Source: Myxococcales bacterium (GTDB taxonomy: Bacteria; Myxococcota_A; UBA9042). Taken from it: a stretch of DNA of 44,870 nucleotides. The translations under genes and the position numbers were made by a program. Below, in pieces: positions 2,579-20,578 of this stretch; position 1 is the first letter of the stretch; every line of letters begins with the position of its first letter. Where the stretch lies: positions 1 to 44,870 of the forward strand of contig JAGSHB010000026.1 in the NCBI GenBank assembly GCA_023954815.1, written 5' to 3'. Under the pieces are notes generated by a model. The model saw only the letters and a list, made by a program, of their open reading frames with translations, did no database searches and was not told the DNA's origin.

Positions 2579-2702
2579 TCAGAACGGAGATTGAGGGTTC
2601 CGAGCACGCCGTCGTCTGCGTCGGTTGCTTGCACTTCCGGGCGGCGTGTATTGTCCGCCAGAGTCTGCCATGTGCCTGTGCGCCATTCGGAGAGCCAACG
2701 TG

Positions 2703-5378
2703 ATGTACGTTCAACAAACCCGCCCCGTAGTCAGCTCACTGCTGCTGTGTGGTGCGTGTGTGATTTTTGCCATGACAGGGTGCGGGGAGGCGGACACCAA
2801 GCCGGATGCCGATGCCAACGCGGGCCAAGTCGATGCGGGCGCCGATGCGGTCGATACGACGGGCGGACCGGACACCATGTGGACCGGCAAATGCGCTGCT
2901 GGTCCGGCATTTTGCGACGACGGCAACCCCTGCACAGTCGATGATTGCGATCCCCAACTTGGTTGCCAAACACAGCCGAAAGACTGCACAGACACAGACC
3001 CTTGCACCATCGACAGCTGCGATGTGACCTCGGGTGACTGCAAACACATCGCTGACAAGTGTGATGACGGCAACGACTGTACGACTGGCAAATGCGACCC
3101 GAAACAGGGCTGTGAGTTCACCCCGCTCGATTGCGCCGACGGCGACCTGTGCACCTCTGATGGCTGCTCTCCGCTCAAAGGCTGCCTGAACACGCCGCTG
3201 GTCTGCGAAGATGGCGTCACATGCACAGCCGACAAGTGCGATCCTGCAAAGGGTTGCGTGCACACCAAGCCAGCGGGGGCGGTCTGCTGCGAGGTTCCAG
3301 CAAACTGCGAGGACGACAACGCCTGCACGCTTCACGCCTGCAACGCTGGCATCTGTAGTTCGACAGCTGTGTTCAACTGCTGCAAGGAAAACGGCGACTG
3401 TGACGACGACAACCCGTGCACACTCGATACGTGCGCCAAGTCGACCGGTCAGTGTTCCAATACGTACCAAGCGGCCGACGGTTGCTGTCAGTCCGACATG
3501 GACTGCAACGATAAGGACAGCTGCACGGCTGACATCTGTGTCAAAGGTCAGTGTGGCCATGAGGTCCAGTGCTGTAAGACGGCAGCCGATTGTGACAAAG
3601 GCGGAGCTGTCGGTTTATGCGGTGCGGCCACTTGTACGGAGGCAGGTTGCGGCATCGTCGCCAAGCCTGGTCAGGGCTGCTGCAAAACGGATGTGGCGAA
3701 GACGGGGTTTGAGAGCGCCGGCGGCTGGAATGCGGAGCTCATCACGGCGGCGTACGGCGCATGGCAGCTCAAATCGAGCGGGTTGTCGGTAGCCGGCAAG
3801 ACTGCCAAGACGGGCGTTGGCGGCGCGATCTACACAGCCAACTCGGTGGCCACACCCGGGGGCCAAACCGTCGCTCGCCTGATGCTCGACGAGGTGGAGT
3901 TGGCTCCGGGCGTCGCCCCCAAGCTGACGTTCTGGATTCGCGCGCTCCTCGTGGGTGGCAGCCTCGGTGACCGCTTGCGTGTGCGACTCGAGACGAGCAT
4001 CGGGAGTTGGTTGGTGTGGCAGGCAAAGGGTTCGATGGGCGGTTTTCAGAAGGTCGAACTCGATCTACGAGGATTCGCAGGACGACCAGCCACCCGCAAG
4101 GTGCGTGTTGTATTTGAGGTGGTACCGAACGCGGTCAAGAGCACCTTCACCAAGGTTTGGCTCGACGACATCGCGCTGACCAGCGCCTGCGATGCACCGG
4201 CCGCTTGTGCGAGCGATAAAGACTGCAGCGACGGGCTCAACGCGACCAGCGAGACGTGCAGTGCGGGTTCGTGCATCTACAAAATCGCCGACGCGTATTG
4301 CGAGTCGACCGTCGCCTGCAACGACAAGAGTGCTTGCACAACCGATGCTTGCACTGATTTCGGGTGTACCAACGTTCCCCTGCCAAACTGCTGCACCAAG
4401 TCGGCGGACTGTCTCGACAATAACCCCTGCACCACAAACTACTGCAGCGGCCTCAAGTGCCAGATGATCGTCAAACCGGCGAGTGTTTGCTGCGCCGAAA
4501 CCAAGGACTGCGACGACGGCAATCCGTGCACGTTAGACCAATGCCCGGCCATCGGGCTCGCCTGTCAGCACACTCAGACCGACGCCTCTTGCTGTGCGAC
4601 GGACGTTGACTGTGACGACACCGATAAATGCACCGTAGATCGATGCACCAACAACAAGTGTGGCCACCAGAACCAGTGCTGCAAGGTCGATAAGGACTGC
4701 GACGACAAGGACGATCTGTGCACGACGGACAAGTGTGACAAGGGCGGGTTGTGCAGCTGGACGCCGACGCAGGCCAAAGGGTGCTGCGAGCCGGACATGC
4801 TCAAAGTCGACTTTGAGGCCGGAAAAACAGGCGGTATGACGCTGACCGGCAGCTCAAAACTTAGCAAATGGCAGGTAGTCACTGGCAAACGCAGCAAGAG
4901 TGGCAAGAGCGCCTTGTACTACGGGAATTTGGCCAAGGGGAACTTCGACGATCAGAAGACGAGCGGCAGCGTGACGACCCCATTGCTCAAGCTGCCCGGC
5001 GGAGAGAAGCTCACGCTGTCGTTCGCCCTGTGGATGCACACGGAGAGCGGTTCGAACTACGACAAGTTTGAAGTGTGGGTCGACACGCCGAAAAAGCAGG
5101 TCAAAGTGTGGAGCAAGGGAACCAAAGGATTCGAGCTCAAGAAGTGGCAGGACTGGAAGATCGATCTGTCTGCTTGGGCTGGTTTCGACGTGAAGGTGCG
5201 CTTGCTCTTCGACACAAATGACTCTGCGGCCAATAAGATGGAAGGCGTCTACGTCGACGATGTGTGGCTGACCCGCGGGTGCAAGAAACTGACATGCAAC
5301 ACCAAGGCCGATTGCGACGATGCCTTGGCGCAGACGAGTGAGGTCTGTAAGGCCGCGAGTTGCGTGTACACCTGGTGA
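2703..5378 (+). CDS. Large Cys-rich repeat lipoprotein with two lectin-like domains
   Basis: An 891-residue exported protein. It starts at the ATG at 2703; a GTG just before it at 2700 is an alternative. A hydrophobic stretch ends in a lipobox with Cys27, then an Asp/Ala-rich linker. Thirteen copies of a Cys module of the form CDDGNPCTxDxC follow, eight at residues 70-320 and five at about 500-695. Between and after these blocks lie two related beta-rich domains (about 330-497 and 698-858). Each starts near a Phe-Glu pair and ends with VWLDDIALTSAC or VYVDDVWLTRGC, which recalls concanavalin-like or MAM-type jelly rolls. Such Cys modules are common in secreted myxobacterial proteins and probably form disulfide-bonded rods. 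No enzymatic motif is visible, so adhesion or surface binding is only an inference. Confidence 0.85.
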   Translation: MYVQQTRPVVSSLLLCGACVIFAMTGCGEADTKPDADANAGQVDAGADAVDTTGGPDTMWTGKCAAGPAFCDDGNPCTVDDCDPQLGCQTQPKDCTDTDPCTIDSCDVTSGDCKHIADKCDDGNDCTTGKCDPKQGCEFTPLDCADGDLCTSDGCSPLKGCLNTPLVCEDGVTCTADKCDPAKGCVHTKPAGAVCCEVPANCEDDNACTLHACNAGICSSTAVFNCCKENGDCDDDNPCTLDTCAKSTGQCSNTYQAADGCCQSDMDCNDKDSCTADICVKGQCGHEVQCCKTAADCDKGGAVGLCGAATCTEAGCGIVAKPGQGCCKTDVAKTGFESAGGWNAELITAAYGAWQLKSSGLSVAGKTAKTGVGGAIYTANSVATPGGQTVARLMLDEVELAPGVAPKLTFWIRALLVGGSLGDRLRVRLETSIGSWLVWQAKGSMGGFQKVELDLRGFAGRPATRKVRVVFEVVPNAVKSTFTKVWLDDIALTSACDAPAACASDKDCSDGLNATSETCSAGSCIYKIADAYCESTVACNDKSACTTDACTDFGCTNVPLPNCCTKSADCLDNNPCTTNYCSGLKCQMIVKPASVCCAETKDCDDGNPCTLDQCPAIGLACQHTQTDASCCATDVDCDDTDKCTVDRCTNNKCGHQNQCCKVDKDCDDKDDLCTTDKCDKGGLCSWTPTQAKGCCEPDMLKVDFEAGKTGGMTLTGSSKLSKWQVVTGKRSKSGKSALYYGNLAKGNFDDQKTSGSVTTPLLKLPGGEKLTLSFALWMHTESGSNYDKFEVWVDTPKKQVKVWSKGTKGFELKKWQDWKIDLSAWAGFDVKVRLLFDTNDSAANKMEGVYVDDVWLTRGCKKLTCNTKADCDDALAQTSEVCKAASCVYTW

Positions 5379-5470
5379 TCTGCGACCCGCTGCCTTGACG
5401 CGCCCGCGCGAGGTGGAGATCCTTCCTTGCTCCCGGTGTCTACTACTGCGTGTCTGGCGAGCGGAGGCTC

Positions 5471-8458
5471 ATGCGCTACTGCCCATTATGCGGCGAGTCC
5501 ACCGAAGCGTTGCACTGTCCTGAGGACGGCACGCCAACCGTGCGCCGCGTCGCGTCGGCAACGGGTCGTGTCATGCGCGGCGAGGTCATTGGCGGCCGGT
5601 ACCGGGTTATTGGCGTCATCGGTCGCGGTGGGTTTGGCACGGTCTACGAAGCGCAGCATGTGACCACAGGTCACTCCGTCGCGGTGAAGCTGCTCTCCCA
5701 GCATCCAGGCACCGAAGGAGACGAGCTCGCGCGACGTTTCTTCAAAGAAGCGGCGACCACATCGCGTCTGTCTCATCCCAACACGGTTCGCGTCTTCGAC
5801 TTTGGTCAAACCGAAGGTGGCGATCTCTTCATTGCGATGGAGCGGCTTGTCGGTGAGTCTTTGCAGGAGACGCTTACGCGCAACCACGACCAGCGCCAGC
5901 TCATGAGCGAGGCTCAGGTTGTCGAGATTGGGGTCGCCGTCTTACGTTCACTCGGAGAAGCCCACGCCCACGGGCTGGTTCACCGGGACATGAAGCCGGC
6001 CAATATCTTCCTCCACGAGGTCGCTGGCGGTGACTCGATCGTCAAGGTGTTGGATTTCGGCATCGTCAAGGACGTCGACGCCTCGATTACTCAGGCGGGC
6101 AAGGCGCTGGGCACGCCCACGCACATGAGTCCTGAGCAGGCCATGGGCAAGGATGTGGACTCCCGCTGCGATCTGTATGCGCTTGGCTGTGTCCTGTTCG
6201 AGTGCTTGACGGGCGGGCTTCCGTATTTCGCCGACAATCCGCTGGCGATCGTCATGCAGCACGTGACCGAGCCGGTGCCGCGCATTGAAGACCGCGTTCC
6301 AGGGGCCGTGCGCCCTTCGATTGCAAGCGTCGTCGAGCGCGCCTTGGCCAAAGAGCCTTCCGAGCGCTGGGAAAATGCCAGCGCAATGCGCGCGGCCTTG
6401 CAGCAAGCGCTCTCCGCGCCCGGTTTTGGTGCCTTCCCGCTCGACCCCCGCACGGGTGGCGGTGTGACGACCGGCACCGTCCCTGGCGTGGGCCTACCGA
6501 CCGGCCCCGAGGCATCACGACGCACCACGGAGCCCAGTTCGATAGCGGTGCCGAAGACGCGGTCTTCGCGGCCTTCGATTCGTGTTCGCCTGCCAGATCA
6601 CACGGTCGAACCCGACGAGCGCACGGTCGTTGAACGGCCTGCGATGCTTGACACTCCGTCCGCGATCGGCGCGCCGCCTCAACCCGCAAAGCGGTCACCG
6701 CGGACTGTCGCACCCACCCGCCCACCGGTGCCTTCCTCTCCACCACCGCCAGTTCCCGGGGCCATGCTGCGCCCGGAAGCACCCGTTCCAGCATCTGTCC
6801 GCCATGACCAGGCACGCGTTGAATTAGCAGAGCGCGAGACGGTGTACCTGGATTCGCTCGATGAATCTCAGGTAGAGACCTTGAAGAAACGGCCGCCAGC
6901 CATCGCCGTGTCGTCTGCAAACGTGCCTGTGCCCGAGCATTTGCGCTCTCACGGGGACAATACAACCGCGATCGAAGTGCAGGCGATGGATGATGAAGCG
7001 GTCGACGGGCCATCCGAGCCAGCGCCACAGCCAGAATTGCGTTCTTGGCGTGACCATGCGCCATTGCCGCCGGAGCCGAGCTCCATGGATGAAGCGCGGA
7101 AACGGGCGGACGCGGCAGCCGCCGTATCTGGGCCAGCCGTGGCCGCATCTGAGCCAGCCGTGGCCGCATCTGAGCCAGCCGTGGCCGCATCTGAGCCAGC
7201 CGTAGCCGTGTCCGAGCTGGCGGATGCTGCCTCCGAACCGGCGGTCATCGCGGATGCTGCCTCCGAACCGACCGAGCCAATCGCCGAGGACGACCCCGTC
7301 GATGGCGTGATAGGTGCTATTCCAGCGGAATCCGACGTGCAGTTAATTCCGGCGGAGGTGCTGCGCCCACCTCGCCCAGGTCCTCGTCGCGTTGATTCTA
7401 TGCGCCTGGGCGGCATTGGCGCGCGATCGGGGCAGACAGGGGGCCGACCGTTACCGGGCTTCGGATCCATGCGCTCATCATTTGATCCTCGCACGATGCA
7501 GGATCAGATAAGCCGTGATCTCATGCGGATGACGGCCTCGCTTCGCCAGCGTACGCAGGAACGGTCGCAGCAGGTGAGCATCGGTGCCATGTGGATCAGC
7601 GAAGATGGTCGCTCGGTTCTCTACGGGGACCGAGACGGTCGCATCGGCCTGGTCCGTGGCACGGAAATCTCTGAGCGACCGGTCATCATTAGTGAATCAC
7701 CGGACTGCGTCGTAGTCGGCGAGCATGCGGCGATGATTAGCGCCTTGGCCATGAGCCCGGATGGTCGTTTGGTGCTGGCCGCGTCGGTGGATGGCGTCCT
7801 CCGTGCTTGGGCACCTGTCGACGGTGAGTTGCTCGCCACGCTGGACATTGATGCCTCGGTCAACGCACTGGATATTTCAGTGGACGGCAAACTAGCGATT
7901 GCAGGCTGTGATGACGGCTCCGCCCGTCTCATCGAGTTGCCGTCCTTGAAAGAACGCCGCTCGCTCCGAGGTCATCGTGATGCAGTGACAGCCGTCGCCG
8001 TGGCTGGTTCCCGCCGGGCGGTAGTCACAGCCGGTCAGGGCGGTACGATTCGTACGTGGGATCCCGTCGGCGGTGGTGCTCGACTGACATCTCGTGGTCA
8101 TCAAGGGGCCGTGTCTGCCCTCGCGCTGGAACGTCGCGGCAAGTGGGTGCTATCCGGCGGTTGGAACGGTCAAGTGCGGCTGTGGTCTCCGCGAACCGGC
8201 GAGACGAAACAGCAAATCGATGCGCACACAGACGTGGTCGCGGGTGTTGCGCTCGACCCAACAGGCGCCCTCTTTGCGACCGTATCGGATGACCGCTCGG
8301 CCCGTATTTGGGATCTCGAGACAGGAGCGATCGTTGCTGAACGCGACGATTTCACCACGGGCGCCAAAGTCGTGCGCTTCCGAGCTGACGGTCGCTGCAT
8401 CTACATCGGTGCGTGGGACGGATCGGTCCGACGCCTCAGCGCCGTCGGTCCGTTGTAG
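5471..8458 (+). CDS. Ser/Thr protein kinase with zinc-ribbon N-terminus and WD40 C-terminus
   Basis: A 995-residue protein. The ATG at 5471 is chosen because GGAGG lies just upstream (5463-5467) and the protein then opens with a short Cys motif (C4, C7, C16) like the zinc ribbons seen before other myxobacterial kinases. The kinase domain (about 42-310) is complete: glycine loop GRGGFG at 51-56, Lys73, HRDMKPAN at 171-178, DFG at 195-197, and GTPTHMSPEQ. A Pro/Ala/Glu-rich linker (about 320-690) contains DNA tandem repeats. From about residue 700 on, WD40-type blades are visible (for example VLSGGWNGQVRLWSP and ATVSDDRSARIWDL), enough for a beta-propeller. No transmembrane segment is obvious, so it is probably cytoplasmic. 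The propeller may recruit substrates; the pathway is unknown. Confidence 0.92.
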   Translation: MRYCPLCGESTEALHCPEDGTPTVRRVASATGRVMRGEVIGGRYRVIGVIGRGGFGTVYEAQHVTTGHSVAVKLLSQHPGTEGDELARRFFKEAATTSRLSHPNTVRVFDFGQTEGGDLFIAMERLVGESLQETLTRNHDQRQLMSEAQVVEIGVAVLRSLGEAHAHGLVHRDMKPANIFLHEVAGGDSIVKVLDFGIVKDVDASITQAGKALGTPTHMSPEQAMGKDVDSRCDLYALGCVLFECLTGGLPYFADNPLAIVMQHVTEPVPRIEDRVPGAVRPSIASVVERALAKEPSERWENASAMRAALQQALSAPGFGAFPLDPRTGGGVTTGTVPGVGLPTGPEASRRTTEPSSIAVPKTRSSRPSIRVRLPDHTVEPDERTVVERPAMLDTPSAIGAPPQPAKRSPRTVAPTRPPVPSSPPPPVPGAMLRPEAPVPASVRHDQARVELAERETVYLDSLDESQVETLKKRPPAIAVSSANVPVPEHLRSHGDNTTAIEVQAMDDEAVDGPSEPAPQPELRSWRDHAPLPPEPSSMDEARKRADAAAAVSGPAVAASEPAVAASEPAVAASEPAVAVSELADAASEPAVIADAASEPTEPIAEDDPVDGVIGAIPAESDVQLIPAEVLRPPRPGPRRVDSMRLGGIGARSGQTGGRPLPGFGSMRSSFDPRTMQDQISRDLMRMTASLRQRTQERSQQVSIGAMWISEDGRSVLYGDRDGRIGLVRGTEISERPVIISESPDCVVVGEHAAMISALAMSPDGRLVLAASVDGVLRAWAPVDGELLATLDIDASVNALDISVDGKLAIAGCDDGSARLIELPSLKERRSLRGHRDAVTAVAVAGSRRAVVTAGQGGTIRTWDPVGGGARLTSRGHQGAVSALALERRGKWVLSGGWNGQVRLWSPRTGETKQQIDAHTDVVAGVALDPTGALFATVSDDRSARIWDLETGAIVAERDDFTTGAKVVRFRADGRCIYIGAWDGSVRRLSAVGPL
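7121..7204 (+). repeat. 21-bp tandem repeat (4 units) in kinase linker
   Basis: Four in-frame 21-bp units encode the repeated heptapeptide AASEPAV in the linker of the kinase. The first and last units have single-base differences and the middle two are identical. A second direct repeat of 20 bp follows at 7221-7240 and 7251-7270 (period 30). Because both periods are multiples of three, changes in copy number would keep the frame and only change linker length. Confidence 0.85.
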
Positions 8459-13446: not shown

Positions 13447-13812
13447 CTATCGCTGACGGCGTGATCCGAGTCGCCAGCCGGCAAGTAGCCCTGCCCCGAG
13501 TGCTGCCAGCGCGCCAGCGGTGATGTACCACGTTGGAAATTCAAACGGTTTCTTGAGCTCTGCGATGTCCTTTTGGCGTTGCGTCAGCACGGTGATGCCA
13601 CGCGGGGCATCTACCGCAGTTGCGGCTGAGGCCGTTGCCGTGGGTGCCTCATCCGCCGGCGCTGCAGTCGGAGACGTGGAAGCCCCAGCGCTTCGCGCGG
13701 CGGTGGGAGCTTGCGCATCAGCCAACTGAGCCCAGCCGAGGGAAAGCACCATCGGGAGCGCGCACACCACCGCGGCATGAGTCAGTCTTGGTCGAAGGGG
13801 GCTGCTAGTCAT
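13447..13812 (-). CDS. Small secreted, C-terminally anchored protein of unknown function
   Basis: A 121-residue protein whose ATG at 13812 overlaps the stop of the preceding gene as ATGA. A signal peptide (about 1-33, ending near ADAQA) is followed by an Ala/Pro/Thr-rich linker. A conserved-looking short segment (VLTQRQKDIAELKKPFEF) comes next, then one transmembrane helix (about 96-115) and a basic tail RRQR. The layout suggests a protein held in the inner membrane by its C-terminus with the rest in the periplasm. I do not recognise a family. It is the last gene of the minus-strand envelope cluster. Confidence 0.75.
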   Translation of the reverse strand: MTSSPLRPRLTHAAVVCALPMVLSLGWAQLADAQAPTAARSAGASTSPTAAPADEAPTATASAATAVDAPRGITVLTQRQKDIAELKKPFEFPTWYITAGALAALGAGLLAGWRLGSRRQR

Positions 13813-15011
13813 CTCAGAACACTCCAGCCGCGGGACGTTCGGCCTAGCCTGCGAGGGCGAAACGTGGCGGCACCTGGGATGCGCGGCGCCGAAAACGTGC
13901 ATTGCAGCTTGCGCGAGCGGCGACGGCAAGACCAGAGCCCCTCCGCATGGGTCCGCGGAATCGGCACTGGATGCCGGCGCCACCCGCTTGCAGTGCGCGT
14001 CCACAACGCTATTCCTGCGTCTCTGCGAGAAGTGGCGGCCACCTGCTGCAGCCAAAGTTCAGAGCCCGCTTGGCGCCCTGTTTGCCAGATCCCACCAATG
14101 GCTGACGGCCACCCTGCGCCAACAGTCGGGAGACGGCGCTCATCGACCCGACGATGCTTTGCACCGGTCCATTCGGCGCTCATCGGTCGGATTGGGCCGC
14201 TGTATAGGACGGTCAGGTCACGCCCTCCTCGCGTCACCGCTAGTAGCGTGCGTCGGACTGTTTGCGGCTTTGTGCGCTTGTGGCTGGCGCCCAGCATGGG
14301 CAATCCACCAACTTTGGGTGCGACGCGCCGTCCGTTATCGAGCTGCAACAACCAGCCGCCGCCGAGGAGGGGTATCTTCGCCTGTTGTTTACCTTTCAGC
14401 GGAAAATAGCGTAGCGGGTAGTGTCTGCTTTGGTTAGGTAGCCTCACCAGGATGCCCAGGCTATGCAGCACTTGGCCCTGCGAGTCGAGGGTGACAGCCA
14501 CACGGGCCCACCGCCTGCGCTCCAAACCTGTCGTGCAGGAGAGATCGACTCCAACGACAACATCGCCCTTGGGACCCTGCCACTGGAGGCTCACCGTCAG
14601 TTGCTGCGCAGCCGCCACTCTACATCTGAGGGCCGATACCTTGGCGCGTCCCGCCCGCTGTCCTTCGCTGGATTGGGTCGTTTCAAGATGGACAATCCGC
14701 AAAGGGGCGCTGCTCAACGCGTTTTCACTGCGATGCAGGTCCGCCTTTAGGGTTGCCGTCCAGTGACGGAGCCACGATGGGGGCTGCGGAGGCGGGAGGG
14801 AGGGCGGGCCACGACGAAGCAACGGCTGCTGTGCCGCCCTCTTGAGCAGGTCGTTACCCGCGCCGGCAAGGTAGTCCGTGATGGCGAGACCTATCGAATC
14901 GACAGCAGGTGCTTTCGCGGAGACCGTCACCCGAACGGGCGCGGCCAACGCTCGCGTAGCACTGAGAGCCGCGACAAGGCAGCAGGCGGCGCTGAGCCAG
15001 CCTTTGCTCAC
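13809..15011 (-). CDS. Secreted protein of unknown function
   Basis: A 400-residue protein. The GTG at 15011 is chosen because it overlaps the stop of the upstream deiminase gene as GTGA and places a clean signal peptide at the very start (MSKGWLSAACCLVAALSA, cleavage near ALAA). The longer frame would run 60 bases into the deiminase gene. The mature part is rich in Arg and Trp and looks like beta strands, with only five Cys. No catalytic motif or known domain is recognised. Coupling on both sides (GTGA before, ATGA after) suggests it is made together with the deiminase and the small anchored protein, perhaps acting in the same compartment. Confidence 0.75.
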   Translation of the reverse strand: MSKGWLSAACCLVAALSATRALAAPVRVTVSAKAPAVDSIGLAITDYLAGAGNDLLKRAAQQPLLRRGPPSLPPPQPPSWLRHWTATLKADLHRSENALSSAPLRIVHLETTQSSEGQRAGRAKVSALRCRVAAAQQLTVSLQWQGPKGDVVVGVDLSCTTGLERRRWARVAVTLDSQGQVLHSLGILVRLPNQSRHYPLRYFPLKGKQQAKIPLLGGGWLLQLDNGRRVAPKVGGLPMLGASHKRTKPQTVRRTLLAVTRGGRDLTVLYSGPIRPMSAEWTGAKHRRVDERRLPTVGAGWPSAIGGIWQTGRQAGSELWLQQVAATSRRDAGIALWTRTASGWRRHPVPIPRTHAEGLWSCRRRSRKLQCTFSAPRIPGAATFRPRRLGRTSRGWSVLR

Positions 15012-17404
15012 ACCACGCGCCGCCGGCGCACGGCGACTAGGGCCAGGGCCGCCAACAAGAGCGCAAGCCATCCGCTGCCGCGGGACGTCGGTGCAGCTGT
15101 GCAGCCGCTAGAGTCGCCACCACCACCCGTCTTTGTCGTGCCGCCACCGTCAGTGCCTTCGCCGTCGAGCTTTACACCCGTACCTCCGCCAATGTCGGAA
15201 CCGGTGGACCCAGCATCGGCTTCCGTGGAACCCGCGTCCTTTTCTGTCTTCGGCGGGCAGGTCAGCTGCTTTGTCTCACTGCAGACGCCGGCATTGCACT
15301 GCGATGTGTCGCCGCAGTAGTTCCATTTGCGTTTGAGACAGCCGCCTTCGTCGACGCAGGTCCAGCTGTGCTTGCCCTGTACGCCACAGCCCGTCTCACC
15401 GGCTTTGTCGCATTCTGGCGCGCACTTGCCGCACAAGGAGCTGTCGAGGCAGTCGTATGCCTTGCTGTCCGAGCTCCACCCGCAGCAATTTCCGCAGGTC
15501 AATTGCTTTGCCCCGCCGCCGCTTGGGCTGCAGAACTTGAGCGCCTTGCCCTGGCAGTGGCCTTCGTAGCTCAGCGACCCACACGAGGACTTGTTGCCAG
15601 CGCTTGGCTGCTGTCCGGCGCATGTCTGGGCTGAGTCGATAACGCAGCTGCCAGCCACAATATCCGCCAACGTCGCACCACTTGGGGCGCAGTCAGCATC
15701 ATCGGTGCAGTTCTTGTTGGCTCCCTTGCACTTGCCCTTGCAGACATTGCAATCACAGATCCAGGCCGGCCCGAAGCAGTCGGTATCTGCCGAGCACGCT
15801 CCTGTCATGCCACCTTCGGAGCAACCGCACGTGCCGCCGAGGCAGTTGCCATCGTCGATAGCCTTGACGAACTTGCCGGTCGGAATCGTACGCGTGATGC
15901 AGTGAATCGCTCCGGACCACAAGGCGATGGTGTCAGCGCGCAGGCCGACGTGCTTCATGTCTGGTAACGCCGTTTCCCACTGCTTTTGCACCTGCGCGAT
16001 GATGGCCACCTTCAGCGGATCGCTTACACAGGAGAGTCCGCTTGCGCATTTGACGATCTCGTCGCATCCCGTGAGAACTGGGCCCTTTGTGCACTTACCA
16101 GCGCCGCAGTGCTCACCGCTGGCGCAGTCAGAGTCCTGCTTACACACTGATCCTGCAGGGTTTTGGCAGGATTTCGGCGTGTAGCTGGGGTAGACGTTCA
16201 CGCCATTGGTGAAGGTCGAGTTGATGAACGTTCGCGGCAAGTTGCCGTACTCATCCTTGAACCGCGTCATCATGCTGAGGCGATGCACCTTGTACTTCTT
16301 GCCATTCGCCGCAGTGGTCGACTCGAACAGCGCGGTGTTTTCTTCCATCCGCTTCTGATTGAGCTTGAAGGTCTTCTGGTAGTCAGCTGCCACGGCGCCA
16401 GGCATCGGCAGCGTCTCGCTTTTGCCGTCACCGTCGTAGTCGAGGGTGATGTCGTTTTCATACTTACCCATGATGACTTCGTTTTCGCTCGACCACTTGA
16501 AGAACATGTCGATGTGACCGGTGCCGTCGTCGCTGATGTCCTGAACGATGAGCGTCTTTTCGCAGGCCATGTAATTCTTGAGCATATTGCGCATCTTCAG
16601 CGCCGAAAAACCGGTGTTCTTCAACGCACGGAAGCTGGTCATGCAGGTGCCCTTGCCATCGGTTTGCACGTTGCCGCCCTCGAATCCGAAGGGCATGCGA
16701 TAGACGGTGGCATCTTTGTAGAACTCGTGTCCGATACGCGTCGGGAGGGCGTCGTCGTACTGCCGATTCGGGTAGTAGACAAAGTCCGTGAACGCGACGT
16801 TGCCCGTCTTCTTCTCGATCATCGGGAAGGGGCCATAGTCGATGTGCCAAATCGTCTGCACTGGCAGCGTCACGATCGTAATGAAGGCCTTCTCACTGTC
16901 CTTGATGCCGTACTGCGTCACTGCCTTCATGAAGTCGTTGCCGACGTTGGCGTTGTTGACAATGACGTAGGCGCGAACCTTAGGGGTCGAGTGGCGGATA
17001 AAGTTGATGGTCTGCTCGGCGAACATCCGACGCACAGCCTTGGAGTTGACCATGCCGTTTGAGTAGCTCGTCCAGACGCCCTGCATCTCCTCCCACTCAC
17101 CGAACGGGCGAAAACGACCGGGTGTCAGGCCCTGGGTCTGGGCGAACCACTCCTTGTGCTGGGCGCGGTAGTCGTCAGCTGCGTCGCTCTTCGCCGGATT
17201 GAGGCGCTCAACCGCTGTCTCAAAAGCCGGTAGAATCACGTTGCTAGCCAACTCTGGTGAACCCGCTTCGATGAACACCCGCTGCGGACTCACAGCTTGC
17301 GGCGCCGCTTTGTACGACGTTTGCACAGGTTTTGTGCACGAAAACGCGAGCAACGCGGTGGCGCCACAGATGAAGAGGGAGCGGCGAGCGGAGACAGGGC
17401 TCAT
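15008..17404 (-). CDS. Surface-anchored peptidylarginine/agmatine deiminase-like protein with MYXO-CTERM tail
   Basis: A 798-residue protein. A lipoprotein-like signal ends at Cys23 (LLAFSC). The catalytic domain (about 95-515) matches the PAD_porph/agmatine deiminase superfamily: GEWEEMQGVW, WHIDYGPFP (Asp189), FEGGNVQTDGKGT (Glu242), DGTGHIDMF (His297, Asp299), FINSTFTNG (Asn395) and SGAIHCITRTIP (nucleophile Cys502). All expected catalytic residues are present. A Cys-rich piece (413-459) interrupts the domain just before the nucleophile strand. A Cys-rich region (about 521-716) and an Asp/Gly/Thr linker follow. The C-terminus is a MYXO-CTERM signal: Gly-Cys768, a hydrophobic helix and RRRR. 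The enzyme probably converts a guanidino group (protein arginine, peptide or agmatine) to a ureido group outside the cell. GGAGG precedes the ATG. The substrate is unknown. Confidence 0.88.
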   Translation of the reverse strand: MSPVSARRSLFICGATALLAFSCTKPVQTSYKAAPQAVSPQRVFIEAGSPELASNVILPAFETAVERLNPAKSDAADDYRAQHKEWFAQTQGLTPGRFRPFGEWEEMQGVWTSYSNGMVNSKAVRRMFAEQTINFIRHSTPKVRAYVIVNNANVGNDFMKAVTQYGIKDSEKAFITIVTLPVQTIWHIDYGPFPMIEKKTGNVAFTDFVYYPNRQYDDALPTRIGHEFYKDATVYRMPFGFEGGNVQTDGKGTCMTSFRALKNTGFSALKMRNMLKNYMACEKTLIVQDISDDGTGHIDMFFKWSSENEVIMGKYENDITLDYDGDGKSETLPMPGAVAADYQKTFKLNQKRMEENTALFESTTAANGKKYKVHRLSMMTRFKDEYGNLPRTFINSTFTNGVNVYPSYTPKSCQNPAGSVCKQDSDCASGEHCGAGKCTKGPVLTGCDEIVKCASGLSCVSDPLKVAIIAQVQKQWETALPDMKHVGLRADTIALWSGAIHCITRTIPTGKFVKAIDDGNCLGGTCGCSEGGMTGACSADTDCFGPAWICDCNVCKGKCKGANKNCTDDADCAPSGATLADIVAGSCVIDSAQTCAGQQPSAGNKSSCGSLSYEGHCQGKALKFCSPSGGGAKQLTCGNCCGWSSDSKAYDCLDSSLCGKCAPECDKAGETGCGVQGKHSWTCVDEGGCLKRKWNYCGDTSQCNAGVCSETKQLTCPPKTEKDAGSTEADAGSTGSDIGGGTGVKLDGEGTDGGGTTKTGGGGDSSGCTAAPTSRGSGWLALLLAALALVAVRRRRVV

Positions 17405-17545: not shown

Positions 17546-20500
17546 CTACTTGAGCGCGCCGCGCATGTACGTGTAGCCAGTCATATTCTCGATGACCTGG
17601 ATGGCAAGGGCAATCGATGTACCTGCAGGGATCTCTTTCGAGATCGACGACAGATCAATCGCTGGCAGCGGGAAGCTACCTAGTCCGCCACCGAGGCCGT
17701 CGACCAACTTCGGTAGCATCACCGTCTTGATCAGCGTCACAAATAGATCCTGCATGTCCTTGGCTTCTTCGTTGATCTTCGTGATTTCCAGCTCCAGAAA
17801 GTCGATACCCTTGATCGAAAACCCGAGCTCTGTTTCACCCGTCTTCGGGTTCTTCACCGCTTTGAGTTCCGCGGTCGCCTGCAGCGTGGTGAACAAGTAG
17901 ATGTCCACGGGCTTGCCCGCCAGATTCAGTTTCGCGTGAACCTGCATGTCACCGACCTGGAGCTTTAGCCCCTTCTTTGTGATGCATGTGTTCAAAATCG
18001 GCGGCAACAGGAAGTCGAGGTCGACGTTGAGCTTGCTGACGCCGTACTGGCTGAGGTCGACGCTGCCGAGCGCTGACTCGCCGATCGACATATTGAGCGC
18101 ACCGGCATGCCAGAGCGAGTAGAGCAACTCGTTGATGAAGTCGTCAGCCAGGCCAATTTCCAATGGGAACTTCAGGCCTGGATTGAACACATCCTTCCCG
18201 CCTGGCTCCAGGCATCCCGCCCGGCCGATGGCGCCCTTGGTCTTGTGCTTGACCTTCTTCTCAGAGGTCATGGACGCATCAAGTCCGACAATCACGCCGC
18301 CGTTCTGCGCCTTTGTCGGCTTGAAAGTCAGCTGGCCGACATTGGAAGCGAGCTTGATTTTCGTCGGTTTGCCGTCTCCGAAAAACGGTGGAATGTCGAT
18401 GTCCTGGTTGATGGCGAGCCCCTCAAATGCCTTCGTCAACTCGTTGCCCAGCGTCTGCTGCAAGACACCCTTGAGCACCTGCTCCAGCGTGGCTTCAAGC
18501 GCGGGGCCCAGCGCTCCAAGCAGCCAATTGGCGACTGCACCGACAAGGCCGTTGAGCGAGATCTTCATCGACGTGAAGTTCACGTCTACGTTCTTGGTGT
18601 CCGCTTTGATTTTGCCTGTCTTGGGGTCGAGCTTCATCAACAGGTCGAAGCTCAACTCGATGGTCTTGGCCGCGAATGTGGCTGACTGATTGAGCGGCGC
18701 TGCGGGCAGGGGTTTGATGCCCCACTTGGCCTCGATGGCGAGGTCGGCCGAGAAGTTGTGGATCTTGCCGACGAGGTTGAGCCCGCCGTCGATCACCGTG
18801 ATGGCGAACTCGGGGTAGCCATTGTTCTTGCCCTTGTCGCCCATCTTTACATTCTTGACGATCGCTTTGCCGTCGAAGAACAGCGCGCCAGTGTTGCTCT
18901 TGAGCGGTACCGCGGAGGAGGCCATGAGCTTGTTGAAGTCGAGCGTCCCGATGACCAACTCGGTAATCGTTGCGAAGTCTTTCGGGTTCTTGTGGTCGTG
19001 CTTGCCGGAGTCGATGACCTGCTGGCTCATCCACATCCCGATGCCGTCGTTGATGGATGCCAGCTTCGGTTTCTTCGTGTCGAAGGCGTACCACTTGGTC
19101 GAGTACAGGTAGGTCTGCACGCCTTCGCTGACGTTGTCCCACTCGTCGGTGGCGGTCCATTTGAGGGTGTTCATCCCCCAGACGGAGGTGCGGTCGATCT
19201 CGAAGCTGCCGTCCGAGCCCACCTTGATGGTCTTTCCGCCGAGCGTGAAGCTCTTCAGACCGCTCAGCTCGTCGAGCACCGTGCCTTTGACTTTGATTTG
19301 CTTCTTTCCGTTGAGGGACACGCCGCGTTCCGGCGACGAAATCAGCACCAACGGTCCTGTGGAGTCGACTTTGAGCTTCAGCTCCTTTGGTCCAAGTTTG
19401 GCGGAGACATCCTTGCCATACTCGTCTTCGGACAGGCTGGCCGTGAACGTGTAGTTGCCGTCGGCCTGCAGCGTGTAGCTCTTGGTGACACCGCTGGCCT
19501 GGTTTTCCTTGACGGTCGCCTTCGGGGTGTAGACCGCCGGGGGCTGGATGGGCATCCAGGTCAACTCATTGCCGAACTGGTCCTTGCCCAGCCCAACAAG
19601 GACGGCCACGTCACCAGCGGCCCAGACCTTCTTGTCTTTCTTGGTCGACAGTTGCCATTCCACTGGCGCGCCGCCCTTCACGATCAGCTTGGCCTTTTCT
19701 TCCTTGAGGTCGCCACCGGCCAGCGCGCAGCCGATCTCGTAGCTGCCAGCCTTGGTCGATGTCACGGTCTGTCCGTTGACCGTCACATCGCTTGGGGCAC
19801 TTACCGTGAGGCCCTTGGTGCCTTCGATGGCGTTGCCCGCGGCATCTGTCACGGTGCAGGTCACCTTCGAACTGCCACCGGCGACGAAGGTGTCGGGGTC
19901 GAGCGTTGCGACCGATTTTGCGGGCGATCCGACGATGACCTCCAGTGATGCGGGGGTGCTGACAGCATCTTTGGCGGTGTCCAATCGGCAGTCGAGCTTG
20001 GCCGTGCCAACCTTGCCGCCTTCGGCGTTGGAGCCGTCCATCGAGGCGATATCGTCGTCACTGGATGTGATCGACCATTTGTCACTCGTCACCGCATTTC
20101 CGAACGCATCTTCGCCCGAACATGTGATCGTGGATTTTGCGCCCGATGCGATTTTGGTCGGCTCGGCGGTCGCGGTGGTTTTCACCGCGGTGGCTGGCGT
20201 GATGGTCAACGGCGCCGGGCTGTCATCCTTCACTTTTCCGTCGTGGATCGTGCAGGCGACCATGTAGCTGCCGGCGCGCTCGGCAATGAGGGTCTTGCCA
20301 TCGATCTTGGTGCCCTCGGCTGGCGTGATCTCGAACACTGGTTCCGGAATGGCGACGTCGCCGGGCTGACCGACGCACGCAACCGTGATCGTCGTACCGG
20401 CCACCGCCTCGCTCGCGCTGAGGGATGTGTTGACCGACGTGAGGGTCTTGAGAACGCCACTCGGTAGCCCGTACGTCTTCTTCGATCCGGCTCCGTTGCC

Positions 20501-20578
20501 GCCTTCCGTGTCCCCACCGCATGCGGTGAAGAGCAGAGCGAACATTGAGAGTAGAGTGACAGTGGCAAAGCGCTTCAT
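17546..20578 (-). CDS. Lipoprotein with Ig-like repeats and a two-barrel BPI-like (TULIP) lipid-binding region
   Basis: A 1010-residue lipoprotein starting at the ATG at 20578, with GGAG six bases upstream and a lipobox LLFTAC giving lipid-anchored Cys20. Residues about 45-405 form four or more bacterial Ig-like repeats, several with paired Cys (VACVG...VACTI, ITCSG...LDCRL, VTCTV...IGCAL). A further Ig-like segment spans 408-490. From about 505 to the end the order of features follows animal BPI/LBP proteins. There is a long amphipathic helix region (ALGPALEATLEQVLKGVL), a proline-rich link, the strand-helix PLEIGLADDFINELLY, then LDFLLPPILN and VDIYLFTTLQATAEL. The last part is a helix ending VMLPKLVDGL, FPLPAID and a final strand. 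BPI-like barrels bind phospholipid or lipopolysaccharide in a hydrophobic groove. The fold call is by eye; the ligand is unknown. Confidence 0.72.
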   Translation of the reverse strand: MKRFATVTLLSMFALLFTACGGDTEGGNGAGSKKTYGLPSGVLKTLTSVNTSLSASEAVAGTTITVACVGQPGDVAIPEPVFEITPAEGTKIDGKTLIAERAGSYMVACTIHDGKVKDDSPAPLTITPATAVKTTATAEPTKIASGAKSTITCSGEDAFGNAVTSDKWSITSSDDDIASMDGSNAEGGKVGTAKLDCRLDTAKDAVSTPASLEVIVGSPAKSVATLDPDTFVAGGSSKVTCTVTDAAGNAIEGTKGLTVSAPSDVTVNGQTVTSTKAGSYEIGCALAGGDLKEEKAKLIVKGGAPVEWQLSTKKDKKVWAAGDVAVLVGLGKDQFGNELTWMPIQPPAVYTPKATVKENQASGVTKSYTLQADGNYTFTASLSEDEYGKDVSAKLGPKELKLKVDSTGPLVLISSPERGVSLNGKKQIKVKGTVLDELSGLKSFTLGGKTIKVGSDGSFEIDRTSVWGMNTLKWTATDEWDNVSEGVQTYLYSTKWYAFDTKKPKLASINDGIGMWMSQQVIDSGKHDHKNPKDFATITELVIGTLDFNKLMASSAVPLKSNTGALFFDGKAIVKNVKMGDKGKNNGYPEFAITVIDGGLNLVGKIHNFSADLAIEAKWGIKPLPAAPLNQSATFAAKTIELSFDLLMKLDPKTGKIKADTKNVDVNFTSMKISLNGLVGAVANWLLGALGPALEATLEQVLKGVLQQTLGNELTKAFEGLAINQDIDIPPFFGDGKPTKIKLASNVGQLTFKPTKAQNGGVIVGLDASMTSEKKVKHKTKGAIGRAGCLEPGGKDVFNPGLKFPLEIGLADDFINELLYSLWHAGALNMSIGESALGSVDLSQYGVSKLNVDLDFLLPPILNTCITKKGLKLQVGDMQVHAKLNLAGKPVDIYLFTTLQATAELKAVKNPKTGETELGFSIKGIDFLELEITKINEEAKDMQDLFVTLIKTVMLPKLVDGLGGGLGSFPLPAIDLSSISKEIPAGTSIALAIQVIENMTGYTYMRGALK

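Follow-up and report, generated by a model that had tools for sequence, protein, structure and literature searches.

A lipoprotein with a predicted two-barrel BPI-like fold in Myxococcota, and its arginine deiminase gene neighbour

Can a bacterial lipoprotein carry both barrels of the animal BPI/LBP proteins, and what would it do at the cell envelope? The question is raised by one gene in a 44,870 nucleotide contig of a lake-dwelling Myxococcales bacterium, the whole of which we call the window. A preliminary description had read its product (P0001) as a lipoprotein in which Ig-like repeats are followed by a tandem pair of BPI-like TULIP barrels. The features of this gene and of its neighbour, a deiminase gene, are given in Table 1.

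Table 1. Features of the TULIP lipoprotein gene and of the adjoining deiminase gene, in window positions. Residue numbers refer to P0001.
Feature	Positions	Strand	Evidence
Exported PPAD-type arginine deiminase (PF04371), with lipobox-like N-terminus, MYXO-CTERM tail and Cys-rich C-terminal region	15008..17404	-	PF04371 111.6 bits; MYXO-CTERM 24.5 bits, cut-off 20
Two-barrel TULIP lipoprotein gene, product P0001, 1010 aa	17546..20578	-	Open frame (1010 codons plus stop), ATG start at 20578, lipobox
Lipoprotein signal peptide, residues 1–20 (MKRFATVTLLSMFALLFTAC), lipidation site Cys20	20519..20578	-	Sequence; lipobox-like N-termini in many relatives
Ig-like stalk, residues 21–408	19355..20518	-	Cys spacing; sub-threshold Ig-family matches
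Ig-like linker domain Glucodextran_B (PF09136), residues 409–485	19124..19354	-	33.1 bits, cut-off 27
N-terminal TULIP barrel and part of central sheet, residues 497–745	18344..19090	-	PF01273; profile to LBP/BPI; model
Pfam LBP_BPI_CETP (PF01273) match, residues 610–706	18461..18751	-	29.6 bits, cut-off 28.8
Long amphipathic helix of N barrel, residues 680–719	18422..18541	-	Model secondary structure
C-terminal TULIP barrel, residues 746–1010, with invariant Cys789 and Cys865	17549..18343	-	Model, structural alignment, invariant columns

A lipoprotein with a predicted two-barrel fold

The N-terminus of P0001, MKRFATVTLLSMFALLFTAC, has the features of a bacterial lipoprotein: a signal peptide and a clean lipobox (LFTAC, residues 16–20), whose Cys at +1 is Cys20. 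Many relatives are alike, and the orthologue in a second genome of the genus is 74% identical over 1010 amino acids. The signal for the lipid anchor proposed at Cys20 can be read in the sequence. The stalk contains three Cys pairs (68/109, 153/197 and 241/284) with a spacing of 41–44 residues. This regularity, together with a PF09136 match above its cut-off, supports the Ig-like stalk, and the Ig-like repeats of the preliminary description are upheld.

The fold of residues 497–1010 (514 amino acids) was predicted with AlphaFold2 from an alignment of 19 sequences. The model is a full two-barrel TULIP, with a mean pLDDT of 78 and a pTM of 0.72; a prediction from the single sequence was unusable (pLDDT 32.5). 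In a Foldseek search of 350,542 PDB chains, the top matches are BPI (4.4e-20), CETP (6.4e-18) and LBP (2.4e-17). Unrelated models typically give a Z of 7–8 in VIA-align. CETP reaches 19.5 (417 aligned residues, spanning 14–514 of the model), while BPI and LBP give 19.4 and 17.3; both barrels are covered in all cases (from model residue 13 or 14 to 514). One-barrel proteins, namely Der f 7, juvenile hormone binding protein and SPLUNC1, align with the first barrel only. With regard to a lipid-binding groove, single strands of the TULIP region seldom show hydrophobic residues in significant alternation.

All of the segments that had been singled out in residues 505–1005 can be found, in the order described, within two elongated barrels arranged as in BPI. 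Neither of the outcomes that would speak against this reading, a lack of paired barrels or profile matches to an unrelated beta-rich family, was found. Two elongated barrels joined in one chain are what distinguishes a pseudodimeric TULIP protein, and the model shows them, aligned with BPI, CETP and LBP. To judge from the model, the C-terminal region of P0001 almost certainly adopts the two-barrel fold of BPI, LBP and CETP.

At the sequence level the two barrels behave differently. The PF01273 match of P0001 lies just above the cut-off; the top-scoring paralogue of this genome reaches 43.5 bits, and 39 of 49 family members match this model, each alone. When a profile of 49 relatives is compared with the PDB, its N-barrel part matches LBP (1.8e-15) and BPI (5e-11). 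In LBP, two more weak stretches fall within the C barrel, in the right order; they are not significant. A profile of the C barrel alone finds no matches in the PDB, no PF02886 match above the cut-off is present in 53 genomes, and by profile comparison the two barrels do not show up as an internal repeat. Of the two domains which make up the Pfam LBP/BPI/CETP family, P0001 therefore has the N-terminal one (PF01273) and lacks a match to the C-terminal one (PF02886). As judged by profile matches, the N barrel is homologous to LBP/BPI; the support for the C barrel is structural only, and comes from the predicted model.

Related proteins and distribution

Like animal BPI, LBP and CETP (PF01273 plus PF02886), P0001 has tandem TULIP barrels, with a similar order of elements and a structural match over the full length. 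It differs from them in being a bacterial lipoprotein with an Ig-like stalk, whose C barrel is missed by PF02886. The N barrel of BPI holds a disulfide. There are no Cys in the N barrel of P0001 (residues 497–745), so a disulfide of the BPI type is absent; Cys789 and Cys865 are in the C barrel.

Two-barrel TULIP proteins are already known in bacteria, so the kind is not new. DUF4403 (PF14356) has been described as a bacterial full-length pseudodimeric BPI homologue (Levine 2019, PMC6791001), and the clostridial proteins P47, OrfX2 and OrfX3, whose genes sit in neurotoxin gene clusters according to PDB titles, are also earlier examples. The latter align over most of our model (Z 6.5–10.7, with P47 at 10.7), but their structural match is much weaker than that of the animal proteins, and a sequence match is lacking. 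P47-type proteins had been taken as single-barrel. This has to be corrected: P47, OrfX2 and OrfX3 align along both barrels. The unusual character attributed to P0001 holds for its direct homology to LBP/BPI and its stalked lipoprotein form, and also for its pairing with a deiminase. It does not hold for the two barrels themselves, which have precedents in DUF4403 (PMC6791001) and in P47/OrfX.

DUF4403 shares with P0001 its bacterial origin and the two TULIP barrels, and a gene of this kind is found in the same genome (G000 contig C54:24449-25672): Two unrelated-looking two-barrel families coexist there. The similarity between both profiles is undetectable, with an hhalign probability of 0.7%. 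We have considered whether P0001 might belong to DUF4403, and rejected it. P0001 has no PF14356 match, only two weak matches appear in the 49 family members (best 0.0064), and the DUF4403 profile does not find any TULIP structure in the PDB, where the P0001 family profile reaches LBP at 1.8e-15. On these tests, the P0001 family appears by sequence to be closer than DUF4403 to animal LBP/BPI.

Another comparison is with E. coli YceB (DUF1439; Z 8.8), a lipoprotein of the outer membrane (PMC5507252); it has a single TULIP barrel and lacks the Ig stalk. P0001 might be a periplasmic carrier, anchored in the outer membrane on its periplasmic side, that moves phospholipid or another lipid between membranes, as proposed for YceB, in which case the deiminase would be unrelated. 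The shared superfamily agrees with this idea, and a lipobox by itself leaves the membrane face undefined. Nevertheless, the long Ig-like stalk and the MYXO-CTERM surface tail of the partner fit the outside better, and every sampled member of the class keeps at least one paralogue, each usually adjoining another exported protein. We consider such a carrier unlikely.

Homologues in other Myxococcota, a point raised in the preliminary description, are common: Of the 379 genomes sampled from the phylum, 202 are positive in a profile search, and several paralogues are often present. In a search limited to the closest relatives (same class or closer), copies are found in all 36 genomes, with up to ten matches each, and the source genome contains two paralogues. 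Full-length profile coverage is also seen in single-contig genomes, and tandem pairs are frequent. Those relatives that are named are genomes of uncultured Myxococcales, and the isolate labels of several contain lake names. For the scan of genome contigs, two wide alignments (A1 and A2) did not contain a stretch conserved enough, while a narrow one (A3) was usable and returned chiefly the orthologue clade. No match to the family was found in the viral contigs and plasmids scanned.

Genes of the P0001 family are usually placed upstream of a gene for a second exported protein. In other paralogue clades the partners are CTDC-repeat lipoproteins, MopE-repeat proteins or a thioredoxin-like protein. 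In a tree of 80 TULIP regions the partner type tracks the clades: 14 changes are required, compared with 49 when labels are shuffled. The N-terminal parts of the paralogues also vary, with either Ig-like or CTDC repeats. Variation of both the N-terminal part and the partner gene would be expected of a display scaffold, and the TULIP fold might then serve as a scaffold or adhesin in a structural surface protein, not as a lipid carrier. We find this very improbable; the two-barrel arrangement is retained across the phylum.

Some details of the CTDC proteins may be added. In several loci (L130, L132, L133, L159, L161, L163, L164, L172, L179 and L183), the TULIP gene overlaps the downstream gene for a CTDC-repeat lipoprotein by 4 bases. 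The partner lipoprotein in L132 has about 240 C-terminal amino acids without a Pfam match. The window also contains a lipoprotein gene (2625-5378, plus strand) whose product has numerous CTDC repeats of the Dictyostelium type, plus a weak MAM-like domain. Repeats of this type recur in the partner proteins of TULIP genes, and some TULIP paralogues, as in L132, carry them N-terminally. The lipoprotein gene is followed on the same strand (5450-8458) by a gene for a protein kinase domain fused to WD40 repeats.

The arginine deiminase neighbour

In all 19 orthologues (the window and L064–L081), the TULIP gene is directly upstream of a deiminase gene, on the same strand. The enzyme is of the PPAD type (PF04371) in 7 cases and an animal-type PAD (PF03068) in the other 12; in the sister genera the animal type replaces the PPAD type. 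In the window the intergenic gap is 141 bases, and it is likely that both genes are co-transcribed; simple scans for promoters and terminators yielded no excess of signals over chance. Downstream of the deiminase gene there is an open frame (13809-15071, minus strand) with 12% arginine and without a Pfam match, which may not be a real gene.

The nearest solved structure to the window deiminase is that of P. gingivalis PPAD, and its scores are far under the cut-offs of agmatine deiminase models. Besides the PF04371 match, it has the catalytic Asp, His-x-Asp and Cys aligned to those of PPAD, which places it in the PPAD type; the candidate substrates are protein-bound arginine and agmatine. Among the animal-type enzymes, that of L079 has a match to human PADI3 at 2e-43, and its catalytic residues are conserved. 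These residues align in both types of deiminase; we take their identities to be those of PPAD and PADI4. Animal-type PAD genes are rare here, usually one per genome, and in the family of the window nearly all of them adjoin this TULIP gene. The exceptions are on other contigs of fragmented genomes.

A second feature is the scarcity of arginine. P0001 contains 7 Arg (0.59%) and 98 Lys. The TULIP region accounts for just two of the arginines: R1006 and R786, the latter being kept by 47 of 49 relatives. Arginine makes up 4.6–12% of the cytoplasmic proteins encoded nearby in the window. The TULIP paralogue linked to a deiminase has the lowest arginine content in 9 of 10 genomes, in a test that treats related genomes as independent. 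On the other hand, the idea that the scarcity is peculiar to the gene with a deiminase neighbour has only partial support: TULIP paralogues that lack such a neighbour are low too, as are other exported lipoproteins in the family of the window, so the low content need not stem from the pairing. In these genomes R/(R+K) is 0.20–0.37 in exported lipoproteins and 0.70–0.85 in other proteins. In genomes of the class without any deiminase match, exported lipoproteins have values of 0.44–0.80, in a comparison of few proteins which is confounded by kinship. A link between arginine depletion in exported lipoproteins and deiminases is a lead, not a result, as the samples are small and related.

What is new here is the pairing with a deiminase in 19 of 19 orthologues, combined with a TULIP protein which is nearly free of arginine. 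Both features suggest a shared context of surface citrullination.

Proposed role

After Sec export, P0001 would be lipidated at Cys20 and located in the outer membrane. It probably faces outwards, because its partner deiminase has a MYXO-CTERM surface-sorting tail. The Ig domains would keep a boomerang-shaped lipid-binding unit at a distance from the membrane, and each barrel may, in the manner of BPI and CETP, hold a hydrophobic molecule such as an acyl chain. By analogy with these proteins, we think that P0001 probably binds a hydrophobic ligand, and it might capture lipids or pass them on at the cell surface. The co-encoded deiminase would convert arginine in nearby proteins or peptides into citrulline, and the near lack of arginine would shield the TULIP protein from it.

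As for the ligand, Myxococcota make sterols (PMC12004948). A sterol is less likely in this case: squalene epoxidase (PF08491) is absent in all 12 genomes searched in the family of the window.

The N barrel of BPI is cationic and binds LPS. That of P0001, on the contrary, has little charge (net charge +3), so LPS binding is not indicated. This bears on a role in predation or defence, in which P0001, like BPI, would bind to the lipids or LPS of foreign cells, while the deiminase disarms peptides or proteins of prey or host that are rich in arginine. There are many predators in the phylum, and the BPI/LBP fold agrees with such a role. Deiminases inactivate the cationic peptide LL-37 (PMC7730452), which would also be in line with it. 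Apart from the charge of the N barrel, which does not fit, secretion or killing genes were not identified in the neighbourhood. We regard this role as improbable.

The best explanation overall, which we favour with some reserve, is that P0001 is a surface-anchored lipid-binding protein acting alongside an exported arginine deiminase. That both proteins have a joint function at the surface is only slightly favoured. A wider proposal is possible, although we hold it as doubtful: The BPI-like lipoprotein and the exported deiminase may form a surface citrullination module, with exported proteins poor in arginine as a protection against self-modification. The proposal would also make the family the nearest relative of eukaryotic BPI/LBP among bacteria, either near their origin or derived from them by reverse transfer.

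Earlier links between bacterial TULIP proteins and animal BPI were limited to very weak profile similarity. A bacterial family which matches LBP/BPI directly (E to 1e-15) and has the full-length fold makes the origin of BPI, LBP and CETP testable with a tree. Its function is accessible to genetics, since it is a multi-copy Myxococcota family whose gene partners are fixed. The combination of a lipid-binding lipoprotein, deiminases of the PPAD or animal type and a near absence of arginine suggests that extracellular citrullination may matter in free-living bacteria. In summary, the family offers a bacterial system for studying the origin of the animal two-barrel lipid-binding immune proteins and the meaning of the pairing of P0001 with a deiminase.
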